Assembly: GCF_007754155.1 (NCBI RefSeq)
Contig: NZ_CP037423.1
Coordinates: 9,544,938 to 9,608,937 of the forward strand
DNA length: 64,000 nucleotides
Source: Stieleria neptunia
GTDB lineage: Bacteria > Planctomycetota > Planctomycetia > Pirellulales > Pirellulaceae
Direction of reading: 5' to 3'
Below the pieces are notes generated by a model. It had not been told where the DNA came from and did not search any database. It saw nothing but the letters and a program-made list of their open reading frames with translations. The translations under genes were made by a program, and so were the position numbers. Position 1 is the first letter of the stretch. Each line of letters starts with the position of its first letter. Below, one piece after another: positions 1 through 55,319 of this stretch.

Positions 1-3000
1 GTTCATTGGCATCAATTGCCCAAACGCCCTTCGGGTTGGTTTCGATCTCGAACTTCTTACGTCGCTTTGGCCTTTCGGCTTCGTCAGGGACGGCTTCGTC
101 CGCCGCGTCGAATTCAAGGACAAACTGCCGAGGGTTCTTCAACATCGAAGGCGTGGTCGCTGTCAGCATCAGCTCCTTTTGCGTCGGCACGCGAGATGCA
201 TCGCCTTGAAGTCGCTCGCGAACACTGGCGGCAGCTTGGTACAGCCCTGCCTTGGCGATCGACGGCACGTTGTCGATCATCGACCGAGCGAGTAACGCTT
301 CGAGTTCGTCAGCCTTCCTGCGCTGCTTATCTTGCAACTCGTCATCTGGAATTTTTCGGTACATTTCCAACATGGCCGTCGCGATGACAAGATAGTTTGC
401 CGCGAACTGATCGATCACCTTGTCCGAATAGCATTCTAAACAACCCGCCACGTCGTCGCGAAACTGACAGTCGGCGTAATACGTCATCAGCGATTCGGGA
501 GTTGCGAAACCGGGGTTTGCCTCAGCGGAATGAATCACACCGTCCGTCGCCGAGTCGACCGAAATGTACTGCTGACGTATTTGGAATGCATAAGTGCTGC
601 CAGGCCTCGCGACTTGCGGCATCACCATTCGTACCGACCAAATCTTGAAGGTGTCACCGCCTAGGCTCCCGAAACGTGCGATCACATCCAACTTGCAGTC
701 TACTGGCAGTTGATGAGTGTTTTTGATCTCTTGAAAGTTTGCGAAAGTTTTGTTGTCGACCGAAGCTTCATGGCGGCGAGACTTCCAATTAACGATTGCC
801 GCCAGTACTTCGTCGACTGTCAATGGCGGCTGACGTTTGCCATCGACCGAATGATGCATCGCATTGAATTCGGTGATCGCAGCGGCCAGCGGCGTTGCCC
901 GTTCAATCGCGGCGGGCAGTCTGGGGGCCCGGAAGTTCACGGGTGGAGCAAGGTAACGTTTGCGAACGAGAACCCTTGATTGAGAGTAGCGATTCACCAG
1001 TTCGATGCTGTAAATCTTGATCTCTCCATCATCCGTCACGACTTCCGATTCGCCCCCTGCGATTGCCCATTGCTCCGGTAAATAGCGTCCGATTCCGAGG
1101 TTGGTTAGGAAACCCTTGACTTCAACGGATAGCTCGCCATCGGTTTGCAGTTTCCATTGGCTTAGCGAAAGCAATTCGTCGACGGTGAGCGGAGGCTGGT
1201 GATCGTCGCCACCGGCTGCGATCATTCTGCGATTGAACGCTTCGACTTTGCCAGCCAATGTGCTGGGGTCCGCGGGCGCACCTAATGCTTGGAATTTGCC
1301 GTCACCATGAAGTCTTGATGCTGCGTCGCCGATCAAATGAAAATGATGGTGGTCGATGTAGACCACTTTGATTGCATCGCGTTCGTCAATGGAATGGGGG
1401 ATTGGATAATCGACTTCTTGTTTCTCGTCGGAATAGACCGTGCATTTATAGTGCGCGTGGTGGAGTTGTGCTGGACCAATCAGAGGATACACGCGAGGAG
1501 GATCGATGTAGTCTGCGATTTTCTCTTTCGTTATTCGCACATTCTCTCGCCGCGTTTTCCAGATCGATGCAATGTTGCCTTTTGCAAAACGTTGCGACTC
1601 TAGAACGCGGAGGATTTCCTGATCGCTGGGAGGATCAAGGGCAATCGCGTTGCCGCCTTGCGTTGTTGGGCCGGGGATTGGCACGAAGTTGGCGAGGGGA
1701 TGCTGCTGGGTCGCAATTGCGTTTGCTCTCTGGTAAACCGGTGCTGGTCCGGCATTTGGATTCGGGCCATTTCGATCGTCGAAGCCATACACATCCAATT
1801 CACGCACCTTGTCCGGTGCCAAGCGGACATCAATCTTCGCCAACCAAGTCTCGCCGCGTTTCAGCGTCACGCGACCGCCTGAGAGATGAACGTCGGTTGC
1901 TTGGCCATCGACTTCGATGCGGTAGTTGCCTGCACTTAAACGTGTTGTGGCACCATCGAGAGAAACGCTGAGTTGGTCGACGATTTTTTCGCCTTGAATG
2001 ATCCGAATCGGAACGTCTGCCTGCGAATTACTTTCGATACGAAGGGTGCCTTTGTTCGTTTCAAGCACGATCACGGTTGCGAGGACTGCAAAGAAGGCGA
2101 ATGCGGCGGTGGCGATCAGCCAATGGGTGAATCGGCCCCGTGAACCGTTGGCGCTACCTTTGAAAGTCGACGGGTGAGTTGAAAGGCCCGCGGCTAGCGC
2201 CGTCGGCTCAGGCGGACGGACCATGATGTTCGGTTGTTGCAGGTGGGCGTGCCAGTTTTGCAGCAACTCGGCTACTTCGGCGGCCGTTTGAAAGCGATCA
2301 TCGGGCGATTTGGAAAGCAGCCGCAACACGGTTTGTTCCAACCATTGGGGGACGTCGGCGTTGATGGACCGAATACTGCGTGGTTCGTCATTGCCAATCC
2401 GATTGAGCACACCCATCGTCGTCTCGGCGCGGAAGGGGCTGCGGCCGACAAGCATGAAGTAAACAAGACTACCGAGTGAAAACAGATCGCTGCGGTGGTC
2501 GATCGTGTCGCCGTGGGCTTGTTCAGGGGACATGTATTGCGGTGTGCCGGCGATCACGCCCGACCGCGTCATGCTGGCGTCGTCGACGGCGCGGGCGAGA
2601 CCAAAGTCGGTGATTTGCACGCGTTCGACGCCATTTTCCAGCAACACGTTGGCGGGTTTGATGTCGCGGTGAACGAGGCCCTGGTCATGGGCGGCGGCGA
2701 GACCTTCGGCGACCTGCGAAGCGATGCGGACGGTTTCGAGGATCGACAACGGGCCGTCCGCGTCGACGCGTTGTTGCAGACTTTGGCCTTCGACGACAGG
2801 CATCACCAAGTACGGCAGCCCATTGTATTCATCGACCGTTTGAATCGGGACGACGTGCGGATGAACGACGGCGGCGGCACTTTTTGCTTCGCGTGAAAAT
2901 CGCCGGCGGGCAGCCGCGCTGCTGGCCAGTTCAGGTGCGAGGACTTTCACGGCACAGTGTCGCCCGAGTGAAGTGTCGAACGCCTGCATCACGATGCCCA

Positions 3001-3322
3001 TGCCACCGCGACCGAGAATCCGTTTGATTTCGTAGCGGGCGAAACGGCCGAGGGTGTCGGGATCGTCGGACGATTGAAGGAAGGTGGGGCAAGCTTCCGG
3101 CTTGCCGTCTTCCAATTCCGCAAGCTGAAAACTTGCGCCACCACGCAGCAACTCACCCGCCTTGTCCATCGTCAATCCATCTTCCATCAGCGATTCCAAC
3201 GCCGACTGACACTCGTCGCACTGTTCGACGTGCGACGCGATCTCAGCCGTTTCGGAGACAGCTTCTTCGTCCAAAAAGCGAGTCAGCGTTTTGCGGTCAT
3301 AATGAAAACGGGCAATCATCAT
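1..3322 (-). CDS. Membrane Ser/Thr protein kinase with N-terminal anti-sigma-type zinc finger (3' end off window)
   Basis: Translating the minus strand from ATG at 3322 gives an open frame to the left edge (about 1,107 codons), so the C-terminus is missing. Seen: residues 31-38 form an H-x3-C-x2-C zinc motif like that of ZAS anti-sigma factors. A Hanks-type kinase domain spans about 94-365, with a GRGGMG loop, HRDIKPAN catalytic loop, DFGLA and GTPQYMSPEQ. A single membrane segment lies near 395-417, followed by a PEGA-like stretch and a long extracytoplasmic part in which a QPPLTVDE motif occurs twice (DNA near 1170-1200 and 805-830). The start overlaps the end of the upstream ECF sigma gene by 26 nt, implying translational coupling. 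Inference: the kinase senses an envelope signal and controls the neighbouring sigma factor, by binding through the zinc finger, by phosphorylation, or both. Family is certain, signal unknown. Confidence 0.9.
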   Translation of the reverse strand, partial: MMIARFHYDRKTLTRFLDEEAVSETAEIASHVEQCDECQSALESLMEDGLTMDKAGELLRGGASFQLAELEDGKPEACPTFLQSSDDPDTLGRFARYEIKRILGRGGMGIVMQAFDTSLGRHCAVKVLAPELASSAAARRRFSREAKSAAAVVHPHVVPIQTVDEYNGLPYLVMPVVEGQSLQQRVDADGPLSILETVRIASQVAEGLAAAHDQGLVHRDIKPANVLLENGVERVQITDFGLARAVDDASMTRSGVIAGTPQYMSPEQAHGDTIDHRSDLFSLGSLVYFMLVGRSPFRAETTMGVLNRIGNDEPRSIRSINADVPQWLEQTVLRLLSKSPDDRFQTAAEVAELLQNWHAHLQQPNIMVRPPEPTALAAGLSTHPSTFKGSANGSRGRFTHWLIATAAFAFFAVLATVIVLETNKGTLRIESNSQADVPIRIIQGEKIVDQLSVSLDGATTRLSAGNYRIEVDGQATDVHLSGGRVTLKRGETWLAKIDVRLAPDKVRELDVYGFDDRNGPNPNAGPAPVYQRANAIATQQHPLANFVPIPGPTTQGGNAIALDPPSDQEILRVLESQRFAKGNIASIWKTRRENVRITKEKIADYIDPPRVYPLIGPAQLHHAHYKCTVYSDEKQEVDYPIPHSIDERDAIKVVYIDHHHFHLIGDAASRLHGDGKFQALGAPADPSTLAGKVEAFNRRMIAAGGDDHQPPLTVDELLSLSQWKLQTDGELSVEVKGFLTNLGIGRYLPEQWAIAGGESEVVTDDGEIKIYSIELVNRYSQSRVLVRKRYLAPPVNFRAPRLPAAIERATPLAAAITEFNAMHHSVDGKRQPPLTVDEVLAAIVNWKSRRHEASVDNKTFANFQEIKNTHQLPVDCKLDVIARFGSLGGDTFKIWSVRMVMPQVARPGSTYAFQIRQQYISVDSATDGVIHSAEANPGFATPESLMTYYADCQFRDDVAGCLECYSDKVIDQFAANYLVIATAMLEMYRKIPDDELQDKQRRKADELEALLARSMIDNVPSIAKAGLYQAAASVRERLQGDASRVPTQKELMLTATTPSMLKNPRQFVLEFDAADEAVPDEAERPKRRKKFEIETNPKGVWAIDANE

Positions 3323-3914
3323 CCTGTACCTCTTTTCGTAGTCTTGCCAACACGCGGCAGCGGGCCACGCGAACGCCTCCTTCGGTCTTCCCCAATCTCT
3401 CGGCGGCTTCCGCGATCGAGATTCCCTCGACGGCTGTCATCCAGAACGCATCCCAAATCGGTGGGCTGATCGAACCACGCAACCGTTCGGCGGCCCTCGC
3501 CAAGAGGGCTCGCTGGTGCTCCACCCGCAGCAGGGTCAGTGTTTCGCTGCGTGCCGGTTGCTCGCCGATCATCGCTTGCACTTCCGAATCGCCGCTGCCG
3601 ACATCACGAGGGCCGCGAGTCAGTTTGTTGACGACCTGGTCGCGAGTGATCTTCAACAACCAGCCACGAAACGAACCGCCTCGTCCAAAATCAAACTCGC
3701 CAACCTTGCGGCCGACGGTTGCGAAAACTTCCTGCGCTAAATCTTCGGCATCGGCATGTTGCAGCCCTCTCGCGCGGGCGACCCGATAGACGACCGGCTG
3801 GTACAAACCGACAAACTCCGCCCAGGCATCGTGTGACGCCGGATCATGGAGCTGGCCGATCAACGACGGTCGTGTTTTGGGGTCCTGCACAATTTGTCTC
3901 CACCAGTTACCCAC
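3297..3914 (-). CDS. ECF-type RNA polymerase sigma factor
   Basis: The 205-residue protein has the two-domain layout of extracytoplasmic-function sigma factors. Region 2 is seen as DAWAEFVGLYQPVVYR followed by DAEDLAQEVF and FRGWLLKITRD (about residues 28-93). Region 4 is a C-terminal helix-turn-helix with ISIAEAAERLGKTEGGVRVA (about 164-183). It resembles the planctomycete ECF sigma factors known to sit beside Ser/Thr kinases. The TGA stop lies inside the start region of the downstream kinase (26-nt overlap), so the two are probably co-expressed and functionally paired. No separate anti-sigma gene is present; the zinc finger fused to the kinase may take that role (inference). Confidence 0.92.
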   Translation of the reverse strand: MGNWWRQIVQDPKTRPSLIGQLHDPASHDAWAEFVGLYQPVVYRVARARGLQHADAEDLAQEVFATVGRKVGEFDFGRGGSFRGWLLKITRDQVVNKLTRGPRDVGSGDSEVQAMIGEQPARSETLTLLRVEHQRALLARAAERLRGSISPPIWDAFWMTAVEGISIAEAAERLGKTEGGVRVARCRVLARLRKEVQDDDCPFSL

Positions 3915-4079: not shown

Positions 4080-4883
4080 CTAGGGCGTCAGCATCACGAG
4101 ACTCAGATCATCCGGCTTGCCGTGCTCGGAGTGCATCCGATCGGTCGCCTGATCGACCAGCGATCGCATGCGCTTGATCGGCGGGCCGACCCGGGCGAGC
4201 GCGCAAACCTCATCCAGATGCAAGTTATCGAACAGCCCATCGCTTGCCAGCAAGACGGTATCGCGCGCGGCCAGACGAACGGTCGGACCGATTTCGATGT
4301 GCATGCTCTTGGAACCGACCAGATTGGAGACATAGTGTCGATCGTCGTGATGCATCGCTTCGTCTTCGCCCATCAGCCCGGATTCGACGGCATAGCCGAC
4401 CGGTGAATGGGACGTCGATTTCCACTTGACCAAACCACGCTGTCCGACGACCAGGGCCATGGAATCACCGACCTGGTACCCGCGGGCGACGCGATCCTGA
4501 ACTTCGATCACCGTCAGAGTGGTCGCGGCCCCGATCGCGAGTTCCAGAATGGCGGCATTGGCCCGCTCGATGCCGTCAAGAATCAACGGTCTGAGGTCAC
4601 CGCTGACGGATTGGGACGAGACGCTCTCGAGCAGACATTGCATGGCAATCGCCGACGCCTTGTGCCCCACCGGGGAACCGCCCACGCCGTCGGCGACGGC
4701 CAACACCAATCCGTCATCCAAGGTGCGGATGATCGCGGCGCTGTCGTCATTGGGGTCTTGTTTGCCGGGGCAGGTGCGGGCAAACGCCAACACATGGCCT
4801 TGGCCGTGGTCGAAGACCTCTGGTTCGCCCATCTCGCTTTCGAGATAGAGCCGAGTCGGTGATGGTGAATGGTCGGGGAGCAA
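4080..4883 (-). CDS. PP2C-family Ser/Thr protein phosphatase
   Basis: A cytoplasmic metal-dependent (PPM) phosphatase of 267 residues. Motifs seen in order are DDSAA (46-50), DGVGG with its metal-binding Asp (65-69), QVGDS (137-141), SDGLFDN (214-220) and PDDLS (257-261), which is the complete acidic metal site of the family. It has no membrane segment or extra domain. It lies 48 bp downstream of a kinase on the same strand, so the two probably form an operon of opposing activities. An in-frame ATG 17 codons downstream (MGEPEV) is an alternative start. The substrate is not evident from sequence. Confidence 0.9.
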   Translation of the reverse strand: MLPDHSPSPTRLYLESEMGEPEVFDHGQGHVLAFARTCPGKQDPNDDSAAIIRTLDDGLVLAVADGVGGSPVGHKASAIAMQCLLESVSSQSVSGDLRPLILDGIERANAAILELAIGAATTLTVIEVQDRVARGYQVGDSMALVVGQRGLVKWKSTSHSPVGYAVESGLMGEDEAMHHDDRHYVSNLVGSKSMHIEIGPTVRLAARDTVLLASDGLFDNLHLDEVCALARVGPPIKRMRSLVDQATDRMHSEHGKPDDLSLVMLTP

Positions 4884-4931
4884 ACGGGAGCCCTTGGGCG
4901 GCGGTGTGGAAACAAGGCGTCCGGAAACGAT

Positions 4932-5777
4932 TTAACTCGATTTTCGTTTACGAAGAACGTGGCGAATCGCTTTCATCCGCGATTTCTCCCACTCCGACGC
5001 CATTTTACCGGCATCGGCGTACCGATCGCGCGGCTTGACGGCCACGGATTTGCGGATGATGCCGATCAGGTCCGGATGGACGCGTTTGCGAATCGTCGCC
5101 GCACCGGGAAACGGCCAGTCGAAGGGGTACTCCGGCCACTTGCTGGAGAACAGGCGGTAGGCGATCAAGCCGAGCGAGAACACATCGCTGCGGGTCGACG
5201 GTTTTCCCATCGCCTGCTCCGGCGGCATGTAGCCGAGCGTCCCGGTGCCCGAACCGTTGATCGTTTGCTGGGCGACCTTGGCGATGCCGAAATCCGCCAG
5301 CCGCAACCAGTCGTCATCGAACAGCAGGATGTTTTCGGGTTTGATGTCGCAATGAATCACGCCCATCGAATGGGCGTAGGAGACCGCTTCGAGCAATTGC
5401 GACATCAATTCGAAGCCCAGCTCGAACCGCATTCGCTTGGCCAATCGATCATTGAGCGTTCGTTTGGCCAGCGGCGACACGATGACAAAATGCCCCTCGA
5501 TGAACCGGGCGTCACGGATCGGCAGGATGTTGGGATGATCCAGCTCGATCGTCAACTTGACCTCACGGCGAAACTCGTCGATCAGTTCGGGCGTGACCCA
5601 GCGTGAATTCGGGATTTTCAGCGCCACCTTGGTCGACAGCAGGGTATCGGTGGCGGCGTAGACGTCGGCGAATCCTCCCTGTCCGATCCGTCGGTTGAGC
5701 CGATATTTTCCCAAACGGCTTCCGACTCGAAGTCGCGGGGCATCGCTGGAGATGGGGTAGTCAGTTCGTTTTGCCAT
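4932..5777 (-). CDS. Small soluble Ser/Thr protein kinase, non-RD type
   Basis: A 281-residue protein that is almost entirely a Hanks-type kinase domain. Seen: IGQGGFADVY (31-40), VALK with the ATP-binding Lys (51-54), HCDIKPEN (142-149), LADFGIAK (160-167) and GYMPPEQ (182-188). There is no transmembrane segment, so it should act in the cytoplasm. The catalytic loop has Cys where most kinases have Arg (HCD instead of HRD). In known families such non-RD kinases usually do not need activation-loop phosphorylation. It is followed by a PP2C phosphatase gene, its likely antagonist. Confidence 0.9.
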   Translation of the reverse strand: MAKRTDYPISSDAPRLRVGSRLGKYRLNRRIGQGGFADVYAATDTLLSTKVALKIPNSRWVTPELIDEFRREVKLTIELDHPNILPIRDARFIEGHFVIVSPLAKRTLNDRLAKRMRFELGFELMSQLLEAVSYAHSMGVIHCDIKPENILLFDDDWLRLADFGIAKVAQQTINGSGTGTLGYMPPEQAMGKPSTRSDVFSLGLIAYRLFSSKWPEYPFDWPFPGAATIRKRVHPDLIGIIRKSVAVKPRDRYADAGKMASEWEKSRMKAIRHVLRKRKSS

Positions 5778-47193: not shown

Positions 47194-49485
47194 TCATCGC
47201 GTTCCGATGTCGAGCGATTCGAAGTAGCGTCGTGCGGCGTGATGAAGATCCAATCCCTGCCATTCGGCGGCACGTTCCCTGGGGATCAGGTCGACGAACA
47301 GCCGCGGGGGTTGGTACAGCAGTTCCAGCGTGGTTTGCACCAGAGCCGAGGGCGCGTCTCGACGGGCGACCAAAAAGGCGGTGGTGCCGACCGTCGCCAG
47401 CCCCCCATCGGGAATGCCTGCGGTCCGGTAATCCTTTGCGTCGATCGTGATCGTCCGCAGCGTCGGGTGTTGCATGGAGATCGTGATGCCTTGCGGGATC
47501 GCGACCAGACGCCAATCGCGCCGCAGCAATTCCGAAACCAGGCCACTGCCACGGCCGACACAGATCAGCGCGACATCGGGTGCGTCCGGCGATTGCAACT
47601 GTTCCCAGGCGATGACTTCACGCGGCGCGACGTCGGCGGGAAGTTGCAGCGAATCCAGGATCATGTCCGCGGCGCGGCGCGAACCGCTGCCGATCGGACC
47701 GACCGCGATGCGTTGTCCGGCCAGAAACTGCAAGCCGACGGATTCAGGTGGGGCCAAGAGTTCGGGCGCACGGACTAGCAGATGCGCCACTTCATAAAAC
47801 AATGGTGCAATGACACACAAATCGTCACCGCTGATCGCCGAGGCCTGCATCGGCGCAAGCTGGACCTCTCGGGTGATCAACAGTTGGCGGTTGGCCAGCG
47901 ACCCTTCGCTGGCGATGACACGCGTCGCCACTGCGGCCGAGCGTTCCAACCGATCGGCGATCGCTTGCGAGACACGGTTGTAGGAGCCTTGTTCCAGCCC
48001 ACCGGCCAACGCCACCGATTGCGGCATCGCTTCAATGTGACGGCTCCAGAGCATCGCCCCGATGACAAACAGGAACGGCGAGAGGGCCAACAGCAACAGC
48101 ATCGCGGCCTGGAAACGGCGGTGTCCGGGTGAGGTGCGCACGATCTTGCGACCGATCAAGGCGCCGACCAAGGGGACGCCGGAAACCCAATGCCACGTTT
48201 TCAGCAACCGCCCGCGGGGCCGCGCCAGAATCGGTCGGCCTTCCATGAACGCGTCCAGGTCTTCGGCGAGGTCTCCGGCCGATTGAAAGCGTTTGCGAGG
48301 TTCCTTTTCCAAACATTTGGCAACAATCGTCTCCAAATCCGTCGGCACGTTGCTGCGAAACGCACGCATCGCCGGCGGCGGCTCGTGCACGACCTGCATC
48401 AACGTCTCCACGACCGTGTCGCCGACCAGGGGTGGTCGCCCGGTGACACAGGCAAACAGGATCGCACCGAGTGAATACACGTCGCTTTGCCGCGTGGCCC
48501 GATCGCTGTGCCCCCCCGCCTGCTCGGGCGCCATGTAATTGGGCGTCCCCACGGCCGCACCGCTGCCGGTCACGCTGCTGTCGGTGCTCAGATTCTTGGC
48601 CAAGCCAAAATCGGTGATGTGAACACGATCCTTTTGATCGATCAGAATATTGGCGGGCTTCATGTCGCGATGCAGCAGATCGTTCTGATGGGCGTGCTCC
48701 AATGCCCGCGCGACATCGCGAACGTATCGGGCGGCGTCTTCGATTCTCAGCTCGCCGTCGTTGATCTTGCGTTGCAGATCCGTCCCTTCGATCAACGCCA
48801 TCGAAAAAAAGTGGTGGCCGGCTTCGTGCCCGAATTGATACACGGGAACGATTCCCGGATGATGCAGCCGGGCGGCGGCCTGGGCTTCGGTATAAAACCG
48901 CCGCACATCGTTCTCACAGGCCAGCATTCCGCCGCGAATCATTTTGACCGCCACGGTTCGATTGAGCATGCGTTGGGTCGCACGATAGACCACGCCCATC
49001 CCACCGCGGCCGATCACCTCCAACAGTTCATAATCGCCGAGCGTGTAGGGCAGCGTGGGCCCCGGATCGCCTTTCGCACGATGCGCCTCGGGCAGTGTCG
49101 CGGCGGGATCGTCCCCGGAATCGTCGGGCCCGGCGACCTTCAAGTCGACGGTGTCCGCGGCCGCGGCGGCTTGCCCGATCTCGCCCGAGTCCGCAACGCT
49201 TGCCCCGGTGAAACGATGGATCGCATCGGCCGCGTCCATCAAACTTTTCAGTTCCTCGGCCATCTCGGGAAACTGTGCCAAAAACTCTTCGCGCGATCCG
49301 ACGGATCCTTCATCACACGAACGCAGGTAGGCTGCGAACGCTTCGTCGATCGGATCATCGGCTTCGGAAGGAACGGGCATGGAATAGTCGGACGAAGGAT
49401 CAGGGGAAGGGGTGGCGTCTTCACATCGACCAGCATCAGAGGCCGCAATCACCGTGGCGGGGGGCGCGCCCTCCGCGGTCGGCAC
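47194..49485 (-). CDS. Membrane Ser/Thr kinase with extracytoplasmic TAXI-type solute-binding domain
   Basis: The start used is GTG at 49485; an ATG 35 codons later is an alternative. The 763-residue protein has an N-terminal Glu-rich helical stretch (EFLAQFPEMAEELKSLMD), a full kinase domain (about 148-415; GRGGMGVVYRA, VAVKMI, HRDMKPAN, ITDFGLAK, GTPNYMAPEQ), a membrane helix (about 458-482; AAMLLLLALSPFLFVIGAML) and, outside, a region (about 500-755) resembling TAXI-family TRAP substrate-binding proteins: SVALAGGLEQGSYNRVSQAIADRL, GSLANRQLLITREVQLAPMQ, FLAGQRIAVGPIGSGSRRAADMIL. Binding of a small solute may thus control the kinase (inference). An ECF sigma gene precedes it by 20 bp. Confidence 0.88.
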   Translation of the reverse strand: MPTAEGAPPATVIAASDAGRCEDATPSPDPSSDYSMPVPSEADDPIDEAFAAYLRSCDEGSVGSREEFLAQFPEMAEELKSLMDAADAIHRFTGASVADSGEIGQAAAAADTVDLKVAGPDDSGDDPAATLPEAHRAKGDPGPTLPYTLGDYELLEVIGRGGMGVVYRATQRMLNRTVAVKMIRGGMLACENDVRRFYTEAQAAARLHHPGIVPVYQFGHEAGHHFFSMALIEGTDLQRKINDGELRIEDAARYVRDVARALEHAHQNDLLHRDMKPANILIDQKDRVHITDFGLAKNLSTDSSVTGSGAAVGTPNYMAPEQAGGHSDRATRQSDVYSLGAILFACVTGRPPLVGDTVVETLMQVVHEPPPAMRAFRSNVPTDLETIVAKCLEKEPRKRFQSAGDLAEDLDAFMEGRPILARPRGRLLKTWHWVSGVPLVGALIGRKIVRTSPGHRRFQAAMLLLLALSPFLFVIGAMLWSRHIEAMPQSVALAGGLEQGSYNRVSQAIADRLERSAAVATRVIASEGSLANRQLLITREVQLAPMQASAISGDDLCVIAPLFYEVAHLLVRAPELLAPPESVGLQFLAGQRIAVGPIGSGSRRAADMILDSLQLPADVAPREVIAWEQLQSPDAPDVALICVGRGSGLVSELLRRDWRLVAIPQGITISMQHPTLRTITIDAKDYRTAGIPDGGLATVGTTAFLVARRDAPSALVQTTLELLYQPPRLFVDLIPRERAAEWQGLDLHHAARRYFESLDIGTR

Positions 49486-49505
49486 GGAGCGGGCCGCATG
49501 GGGAC

Positions 49506-50147
49506 CTACATGTACGGATTGTTCTTGGGATCAATGATGGTCCGCAGTTTCTGCAACCCTCGTTTTAGCAAGCCAGCGACGGCGGTGTCGGATTTTCCCA
49601 TCCGCTCGACGATGATTGCCAGCGGCAAACCTTCCATGTAACGCAATCGGATCGCTTCGGCCTGCGTTTCGGGCAATTGATGCAATGCTTCCAACAGGGC
49701 GACGGCTGTTTCCTCCTTGATCACCACACCGGAAGGGCTGGTGGTGCTGCCGGGCAATTGGGCGATCCAGGGTGCACCGCCCGAATCGTTTCCCTGCTTG
49801 GCATCGGCATTGACTTCTCGACGAATACTCCGCTTTTGCGTCATGACGTGACGCGTCACGGCCGTGGCGACGTTGTTTTTCAACATGCCACGCAACCACG
49901 CGGCAAACTCTCCCGGCGAATCGCCACGAAAGGAATGCAGGTCGCGTTTTGCTTCCAAAAACGTGACTTGAACGATGTCCCCCGGATCGACGCGGCGGCG
50001 AAGCTGTTCGGACAAATTGCGATGCGCGAGCATCAACAAGTACCCGCGATACTGTTCCAGCAATTGCCCCAACGCCGAATTGTCGCCGGCTTTGGATGCG
50101 ACCACTAATTCGGTCGTCGACATGTCTCCATCAGTTGCGGTCATCAA
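49506..50147 (-). CDS. ECF-type RNA polymerase sigma factor (second)
   Basis: A 213-residue ECF sigma. Seen: region 2 with YRGYLLMLAHRNLSEQLRRRVDPGDIVQVTFLEAKRDLHSFRG and FAAWLRGMLKNNVATAVTRH (about 30-105), and region 4 with LHQLPETQAEAIRLRYMEGLPLAIIVERMGKSDTAVAGLLKRGLQKLR (about 154-205). It belongs to the planctomycete type found with Ser/Thr kinases. It is 20 bp upstream of the TAXI-sensor kinase and probably expressed with it. Unlike the modules at 1-3914 and 54714-56824, its kinase partner has no zinc finger. Confidence 0.92.
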   Translation of the reverse strand: MMTATDGDMSTTELVVASKAGDNSALGQLLEQYRGYLLMLAHRNLSEQLRRRVDPGDIVQVTFLEAKRDLHSFRGDSPGEFAAWLRGMLKNNVATAVTRHVMTQKRSIRREVNADAKQGNDSGGAPWIAQLPGSTTSPSGVVIKEETAVALLEALHQLPETQAEAIRLRYMEGLPLAIIVERMGKSDTAVAGLLKRGLQKLRTIIDPKNNPYM

Positions 50148-54324: not shown

Positions 54325-54713
54325 TTCGGGTGCCTCGATCCGGTCCTTTGAACAATCAGCAACGTGCGCGCATCCAATCCAACCATCCGTCAACAGCGCA
54401 AGTGGCAGCGCCGTGACACGTCCATCGGCAGACGAGTGATAAGATGATGAAGAGATGACCCACGCCCGCCTACGAGCGTTAGCGTGGCGAATCCGAGTGG
54501 CGTTGTCAAATCGGACGGCCAGTCTGGAATGTTTCGGCCCTCCAATCGTTCAGCCTTTCCCTCCCGCACCCGATCCAACAGCTAGAAAATAATAAACTGC
54601 AAAAATGACCTGACCTGCTGACAGATTTGCTCACCTGGCGTGTGTAGGACGTCTGATGACGCTCCGCTTTGCCCGACGCATCGTGCCGAACTCCCGATTC
54701 ATTGTCCCGCCGA
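54325..54713. other. Divergent intergenic region, no gene seen
   Basis: This 389-bp gap separates the VWA gene (minus) from the ECF sigma gene (plus). Only short frames without coding signature are present. The stretch at 54575-54640 is AT-rich (AGAAAATAATAAACTGCAAA) and may hold the sigma-gene promoter, though no consensus is clear. Confidence 0.5.
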
Positions 54714-55319
54714 ATGTCTGTTCCCGAAACACGACCGAGCCTGCTGATGCGAATCCGCGATCCCCGTGATCGCCAGGCGTGGCACGAGTTTTCGGACCTG
54801 TATCGTCCCGTCGTCTGCCGAATGGCACGCCATCGGGGCATGCAACCGGCCGACGCGGACGATTTGGCTCAGCAAGTTTTGCTGGCAATTTCGCGAGCGA
54901 TCGAAGGATTTGACCCCGACAACGGGCAAGCAAAATTTCGAACCTGGCTGAAAACGATCGCTCGACGCGCGATCATCAATGCCCTCACCCGCGGCGCGCC
55001 CGATCGGGCGATCGGAGGCAGCGACGTCATCGATTTCCTGCATCAACAGCCCGCCGCCGATGATCAAACGTCAACCTTGATGATGCAGTACCGGCGAGAA
55101 ATCTTTCTCGTCGCCGCCTCACAAATCCGTGAGGAGTTCCATGGCGAGACCTGGCAAGCGTTTTGGTGCAGCGTGGTGCTCGGACAAGATGTTCAACGGG
55201 TTGCCGAGACGTTGAATCGCTCCCGCGGAAGTGTCTACACCGCCCGCAGCCGTGTCATGAAACGCCTGAAGGACAAAGTCCAGGAACTCGATCTGCGGCA
55301 GGAGCACGACGAATCATGA
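54714..55319 (+). CDS. ECF-type RNA polymerase sigma factor (third)
   Basis: The start at 54714 (MSVPETRPSLLMRIRD) fits the family N-terminus; the longer frame adds 15 residues of no similarity. The 201-residue protein closely parallels the sigma at 3297-3914: RQAWHEFSDLYRPVVCRMARHRGMQPADADDLAQQVLLAI, then FRTWLKTIARRAIINALTRG, and region 4 with QDVQRVAETLNRSRGSVYTARSRVMKRLKDKV. The two are probably paralogues. The stop TGA overlaps the kinase ATG in ATGA, so translation is coupled. It heads a sigma-kinase-TPR operon. Confidence 0.93.
   Translation: MSVPETRPSLLMRIRDPRDRQAWHEFSDLYRPVVCRMARHRGMQPADADDLAQQVLLAISRAIEGFDPDNGQAKFRTWLKTIARRAIINALTRGAPDRAIGGSDVIDFLHQQPAADDQTSTLMMQYRREIFLVAASQIREEFHGETWQAFWCSVVLGQDVQRVAETLNRSRGSVYTARSRVMKRLKDKVQELDLRQEHDES

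Follow-up and report, generated by a model that had tools for sequence, protein, structure and literature searches.

Anti-sigma factors and serine/threonine (Ser/Thr) kinases are treated as separate controls of extracytoplasmic function (ECF) sigma factors in PMC8103513. Among the former, the zinc-associated anti-sigma (ZAS), or class I, factors—ChrR, RsrA, RshA, RslA, RsiW and DdvA—share the motif H-x3-C-x2-C, with a fourth ligand some 25 residues before it and a helix after it, and their genes adjoin or overlap that of an ECF sigma. Among the latter, the ECF43 pairs EcfP/PknT and EcfK/PknS consist of an ECF sigma that adjoins a membrane Hanks-type kinase; sigmas of the EcfP type lack the acidic motif of region 2.2, and gain the charge through phosphorylation instead (PMC8103513, PMC8999054, PMC13147305). 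The locus described here, at the start of a 64,000-nucleotide (nt) stretch of the Stieleria neptunia genome ('the window': contig NZ_CP037423.1, positions 9,544,938 to 9,608,937), resembles both. Its ECF sigma gene overlaps a kinase gene, but it differs from the ZAS factors in that the ZAS-type domain is joined to an intact Ser/Thr kinase domain in the same chain, and from the ECF43 pairs in that the sigma keeps its acidic motif and the kinase bears the ZAS domain. We put at roughly 0.65 the probability that this protein is a one-piece regulator, a kinase that serves as its own anti-sigma factor and whose signal-driven phosphorylation would loosen its grip on the sigma.

Two further precedents share features with this locus. 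In Mycobacterium tuberculosis, phosphorylation of the ZAS factor RshA by PknB, acting in trans, releases the ECF sigma SigH (PMC8999054, PMC13147305), much as we propose here, except that the kinase in that case is one protein and the anti-sigma factor another. ECF groups 59, 61, 62 and 217 also have a sigma with a neighbouring kinase, with planctomycete examples in PMC8999054, according to which the acidic motif is retained in kinase-linked ECFs other than ECF43, which hence may work differently. The portions of the reviews drawn on make no mention of a ZAS domain on the kinases of these groups. Likewise, no description of a ZAS domain on a Ser/Thr kinase was found in the titles and abstract openings of the literature searched, and an earlier mention, in an ECF classification or in the first planctomycete survey, is possible. 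Precomputed Pfam labels already join zf-HC2 with a kinase in several homologues. The parts of the locus are these:

3297..3914, minus strand: ECF sigma factor gene, 205 amino acids (aa), GTG start, region 2.2 acidic motif DAED intact
1..3322, minus strand: ZAS-kinase gene, incomplete in the window; 1134 aa in full, with 3319 as an alternative start
3297..3322, minus strand: overlap of the sigma and kinase genes, 26 nt when counted from the first ATG and 23 nt when counted from the second
3137..3322, minus strand: ZAS-type domain, residues 1-62, with potential ligands H7, H31, C35 and C38 and a helix-4-like segment GLTMDKAGELLR
2288..3034, minus strand: protein kinase domain, residues 97-345, with K126, HRDIKPAN at 218-225 and DFG at 239-241
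2063..2119, minus strand: hydrophobic helix, residues 402-420, from hydropathy only
2..2062, minus strand: C-terminal region, presumed from the inferred topology to lie outside the cytoplasm; no Pfam match

The sequence gives good support to the view that this kinase begins with a complete anti-sigma domain of class I, whose profile relates it to ChrR and RsiW. A preliminary description of this DNA had noticed the motif H31-x3-C35-x2-C38, which is present as claimed when numbered from 3322. To it can be added a fourth potential ligand that the description had missed, H7, 24 residues ahead of H31, and the domain extends over ~62 residues rather than 50. Fifteen kinases in the host genome (10.98 Mb on one contig, the source of all own-genome counts) carry the motif, and a scan for all four ligands with a 140-residue cut recovers 14 of them, the first ligand of L104 falling outside the cut. 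In a separate set of 14 own-genome N-termini, all of the motif kinases but L013, a Cys or His always stands 24-26 residues ahead of the motif His; it is Cys in 12, and His only in the window protein and in L091. L013 itself has Cys 25 residues ahead. The order of the ligands in the window protein, H-H-C-C, matches ChrR when the profile is aligned with the PDB, and the aligned residues of ChrR are presumably those that bind its zinc.

When a profile of the 14 N-termini was searched against the PDB, it matched DdvA (E-value 1.3e-5), ChrR (2.9e-4), 3hug_B (3.8e-4), a chain that we take to be RslA, and RsiW (0.014). The same profile also matched a CHAT-domain protein over the same stretch (2.1e-4), and the search returned four unrelated-looking entries with weaker or similar E-values, among them a cytochrome construct (0.0016); the window sequence alone found no anti-sigma structure in the PDB. 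Pfam zf-HC2 matches 11 of the 14 own-genome N-termini (E up to 10, best 3.4e-8), the window's not being among them, and the NCBIfam RsrA model makes a weak match to residues 13-43 of the window protein, below cut-off (E 0.032). Chance seldom produces such a pattern: in 200,000 shuffles of the 97 aa ahead of the kinase domain, H-x3-C-x2-C arose 224 times, and the pattern of all four ligands 21 times. A search with residues 1-130 found 139 similar proteins, and the full ligand set is present in 113 of the best 120, two of the seven exceptions having wider ligand spacing; H31, C35 and C38 are invariant in 60 of 60 aligned proteins. Because these proteins were chosen by similarity, their agreement is partly selected, whereas the census of ECF linkage that follows is not. 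The domain would presumably bind zinc.

In the host genome, 127 Pkinase rows reduce to 118 places, and there are 130 ECF rows. Forty-five of the kinases lie behind an ECF gene, on the same strand and within 1500 nt, and six more adjoin an ECF gene on the other strand. H-x3-C-x2-C occurs ahead of the kinase domain at 15 of the 118 places, and all 15 adjoin an ECF gene; the motif is thus present in 15 of 51 ECF-adjacent kinases and in 0 of 67 others (p 8.8e-7), in a grouping set after three divergent motif kinases had been seen. If same-strand pairs only are counted, the figures are 12 of 45 and 3 of 73 (p 0.00095), the three outside the 45 being those divergent kinases, which belong to the six opposite-strand cases. 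The other 36 of the 51 ECF-adjacent kinases are without the motif. One free ZAS open reading frame (ORF) with no kinase counts for the anti-sigma interpretation. At L417 (G000:C1 ~5977145-5977462, minus strand; profile match 5977253-5977435), a ZAS open frame of 105 aa overlaps the gene of an ECF sigma from the same clade; the frame ends at LTPTDD, about where the kinase domain of its relatives begins, and no kinase lies behind it. This may be a natural ZAS factor without a kinase, or a decayed gene.

The same association appears when one starts from the sigma and ignores the kinase. With the window sigma as query, 108 of 149 genomes sampled from the same family yielded relatives, the closest named loci being those of Rhodopirellula sp. 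JC639 (92%), Planctomycetes bacterium TBK1r (89%) and Stieleria tagensis (80%). A ZAS-kinase is present at 29 of the 30 best sigma loci (L177 shows no kinase within 1.47 kb) and at all of the next 60 among the matches listed. The preliminary description had pointed to loss of the zinc residues across orthologues as telling against its proposal; the ligands are kept in 29 of 29 kinases from the first set and in 60 of 60 from the second. Among 39 named loci, distant ones included, 27 have ZAS-kinases, eight have kinases without the motif, and four have no kinase in view. The eight comprise L271, with Arg for His, L262, with an odd N-terminus, and six distant loci (L289, L291, L292, L293, L294 and L295) where the N-terminal segment of the kinase is short and different, around F-G-F-D / W-x-x-x-x-R-x-A; five of these six are labelled Phycisphaerae or similar.

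Queries from three other sigma branches of the same genome found ZAS-kinases at 30, 22 and 20 of 30 loci, respectively. All loci together, in sets that overlap one another, ZAS-kinases accompany the sigma at 188 of 219 (168 downstream, 20 divergent) and other kinases at 12. Of 151 same-strand sigma/ZAS-kinase pairs, 49 overlap by ATGA and 29 overlap otherwise. A profile search across the phylum gave ZAS-like matches in 166 of 246 genomes, only part of them kinases: at 18 of 30 loci returned the same frame includes a kinase, and a sigma is nearby at 11 of those 18. No natural fusion of sigma and ZAS-kinase turned up at E <= 0.001 among 8000 candidates scored (on the sigma part only) with a 948-aa query made of the window sigma and kinase residues 1-743. 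We consider the odds about even that these proteins form a planctomycete-wide class, with ~15 copies in this genome, that unites receptor, kinase and anti-sigma factor in one membrane protein and frees the sigma by self-phosphorylation beside the clamp.

The window sigma exceeds the Pfam cut-off for both Sigma70_r2 and r4_2 and, among the 25 NCBIfam rows listed, exceeds the cut-off for the ECF superfamily only. Its region 2.2 motif reads DAED, whereas the hallmark of ECF43 is the replacement of the acidic DxxD by neutral residues and Thr. At least two of the four motif positions are acidic in 175 of 188 distinct sigmas of ZAS pairs and one is acidic in the other 13; none has zero. Nine own-genome sigmas with non-ZAS kinases have instead a neutral, ECF43-like Q-x-T-A-L-V at the motif (L070, L073, L075, L076, L080, L081, L082, L093 and L113), and in most other non-ZAS pairs the motif still has some acidic residues. 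Since the motif is kept in ZAS pairs and neutral in these nine non-ZAS pairs, two strategies or more seem to be at work in the genome, with the ZAS domain apparently accompanying sigmas that have no need of charging.

Phosphorylation elsewhere in the sigma is possible, as in EcfK, whose activating phosphosites lie in the linker between the sigma domains, outside the acidic motif (PMC13147305). This precedent lends some colour to the idea that the ZAS part is a docking site only, and that the sigma is never held inactive but becomes active once phosphorylated itself, like the sigmas of EcfP/PknT and EcfK/PknS. So do the intactness of the kinase across the family and the strong correlation, described below, between sigma and kinase-domain distances. 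We nevertheless think such docking unlikely, because the sigma here has the acidic motif whose place phosphorylation takes in ECF43, and because the ZAS domain resembles inhibitors.

The catalytic set of the window kinase is complete and of Hanks type (K126, D220, N225 and D239), and these residues are present in 183 of the 188 ZAS-kinases, the remaining five having gaps at those sites. The preliminary description had also spoken of a fused sensor, which is a putative one: what follows the kinase domain is one hydrophobic helix and ~700 residues, and among the 1107 residues inside the window only kinase models exceed the Pfam cut-offs. Of 115 homologues, 112 possess both the membrane helix and a long C-terminal part, which suggests that the signal comes from outside. 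This sits poorly with a zinc or redox switch like RsrA, in which oxidation or loss of the metal would free the sigma and the kinase would serve some other output or a second input. Oxidation-released ZAS factors are reviewed in PMC8999054, and the ligand pattern here, with two Cys in the window protein and three in most relatives, resembles that of the soluble factors; the ZAS motif is often structural, however (PMC7406223), and we regard a switch of this kind as quite improbable.

Along the one-piece regulator, the N-terminal ZAS domain would be followed by a Ser/Thr kinase in the cytoplasm, then by a helix in the membrane, and last by a C-terminal region, probably outside the cytoplasm. At rest, the ZAS domain would hold the co-encoded sigma away from RNA polymerase, likely binding it as ChrR-like domains bind theirs, and the sigma would be silent while bound. 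A signal at the C-terminal region would activate the kinase; once the ZAS domain, the linker ahead of the kinase, or the bound sigma itself had been phosphorylated, the grip would loosen and the sigma would be set free. Release is proposed because the nearest precedent is RshA and PknB freeing SigH. No result here fixes the direction of the switch, and the same parts could in principle work in reverse, phosphorylation tightening the grip so that the sigma stays bound until the kinase is off; with RshA freeing SigH upon phosphorylation by PknB in trans (PMC8999054, PMC13147305), we hold this to be very unlikely. The earlier claim that the kinase is its own anti-sigma factor stands, then, at the level of domains—by profile match, ligand set, ECF linkage and ligand conservation—and is a proposal at the level of function. 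A linker motif ahead of the kinase domain, P-[ST]-[DEN], was considered as the phosphosite and rejected; it occurs in 92 of 188 ZAS-kinases and in 2 of 103 other own kinases, and is too uneven.

Several observations weigh against the one-piece regulator. The ZAS domain of the window protein escapes the Pfam zf-HC2 model; the six distant named loci pair relatives of the sigma with kinases that have no ZAS domain; no kinase is in view at 19 of the 219 sigma loci; and zinc is dispensable in some class I factors, RsiW for example (PMC7406223). Others come from the co-evolution of sigma, ZAS and kinase, analysed in 188 distinct pairs out of 203 (the 188 ZAS-kinase loci and 15 own pairs). The highest distance correlation is between sigma and kinase, 0.77, as against 0.60 between sigma and ZAS; the coupling signal between sigma and ZAS is largely common to the sigma–kinase control; and the couplings favour sigma domain 4, not clearly domain 2, unlike the published class I pattern, in which 12 of 14 link helix 4 with sigma domain 2 (PMC7406223). 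The class I fold has four helices, of which the first sits at sigma domain 4 and the fourth at domain 2.

With the kinase held constant, the sigma–ZAS correlation is 0.46; with the sigma held constant, that between ZAS and kinase is -0.04, although the two share a chain. In mean-field analysis, sigma domain 4, which makes up 57 of the 193 sigma columns, holds nine of the ten strongest sigma–ZAS couplings versus two of ten in an entropy-matched sigma–kinase control, and 37 of the top 80 versus 25. The coupled sigma residues R182, C186, L189 and R193 are spaced as they would be on a single face of a helix, and 8 to 11 of the 15 best sigma–ZAS pairs return in 70% subsamples (6 to 8 in the control). 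The mean of the top ten sigma–ZAS couplings is 1.22, compared with 0.73 (maximum 0.81) for 18 shuffles within clusters, 0.72 for 10 free ones and 0.82-0.95 for 10 within finer clusters. The control, 70 kinase columns of matched entropy, gives 1.03 versus 0.65 when shuffled, and three kinase blocks give 1.19, 1.23 and 1.12 versus 0.86, 0.89 and 0.98 (one shuffle each), the first two equalling the sigma–ZAS value. Because the sigma–kinase controls also exceed their shuffles, the sigma–ZAS couplings are no proof, and we take co-evolution to be suggestive of a contact between sigma and ZAS. Where the coupled residues fall on Escherichia coli RpoE depends on the alignment—MAFFT sets R193 on R178, a residue named in PMC7406223, and an ungapped reading by eye sets L189 there—and this mapping is not used as evidence.

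That much of the coupling is matched by the control is what one might expect if the ZAS part were a zinc fold that never touches the sigma, and its linkage to ECF genes were due to shared descent only. We find this scarcely credible: the motif occurs in none of the 67 kinases away from ECF genes, the similarity is to anti-sigma factors, and divergence of the ZAS domain tracks the sigma rather than the kinase.

If the one-piece regulator is real, anti-sigma control and kinase control of ECF sigmas merge into a single mechanism. A ZAS domain on the kinase would explain those kinase-linked ECFs that keep the acidic motif, as sigmas that need releasing rather than charging, and a 62-residue fragment, together with a kinase that bears a point mutation, could serve to test many planctomycete sigma/kinase pairs.

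As to gene boundaries, the ZAS-kinase gene extends 83 nt beyond base 1 of the window. The overlap of 26 nt with the sigma gene, reported earlier, is confirmed for an ORF start at 3322; from the ATG at 3319 it is 23 nt, and the product is 1133 aa. The start at 3319 is the likelier, because 11 of the 151 related pairs share the exact 23-nt spacing and because the database protein is 1133 aa long. It had also been stated that there is no separate anti-sigma gene, and this holds for the ZAS type: of the matches listed from the whole-genome profile search, no further one lies close to this end of the window. An anti-sigma gene of the zinc-free type may yet be present. The nearest downstream ORF of at least 150 aa is on the opposite strand and, read by eye, is transposase-like. 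Other genes in the window are these:

4080-4883, minus strand: PP2C-like phosphatase gene (PP2C by eye), upstream of the sigma gene
4932-5777, minus strand: small kinase gene, upstream of the sigma gene
54669..55319, plus strand: another ECF sigma gene of this kind, with an uncertain start codon
55316..56824, plus strand: second ZAS-kinase gene, with Cys8, H32, C36 and C39 and a zf-HC2 match

The PP2C-like gene and the small kinase (4080-5777) were considered as parts of the system and rejected, since they stand beside the sigma at only two of the 39 named loci, L258 and L259 (flanks of up to 5 kb, some shorter).

ECF-paired kinases of other kinds occur in the same genome. Four (L087, L094, L100 and L110) have a zinc-ribbon-like segment, C-x2-C ... 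C-x2-C, ahead of the kinase domain, possibly another sigma-binding module, and at L072 sigma and kinase matches lie within one 509-aa open frame, without ZAS. A third sigma–kinase pair in the window (47194-50147, minus strand) has a kinase without the ZAS motif. In the second pair, the ATG of the ZAS-kinase and the stop codon of the sigma share four nucleotides, ATGA.

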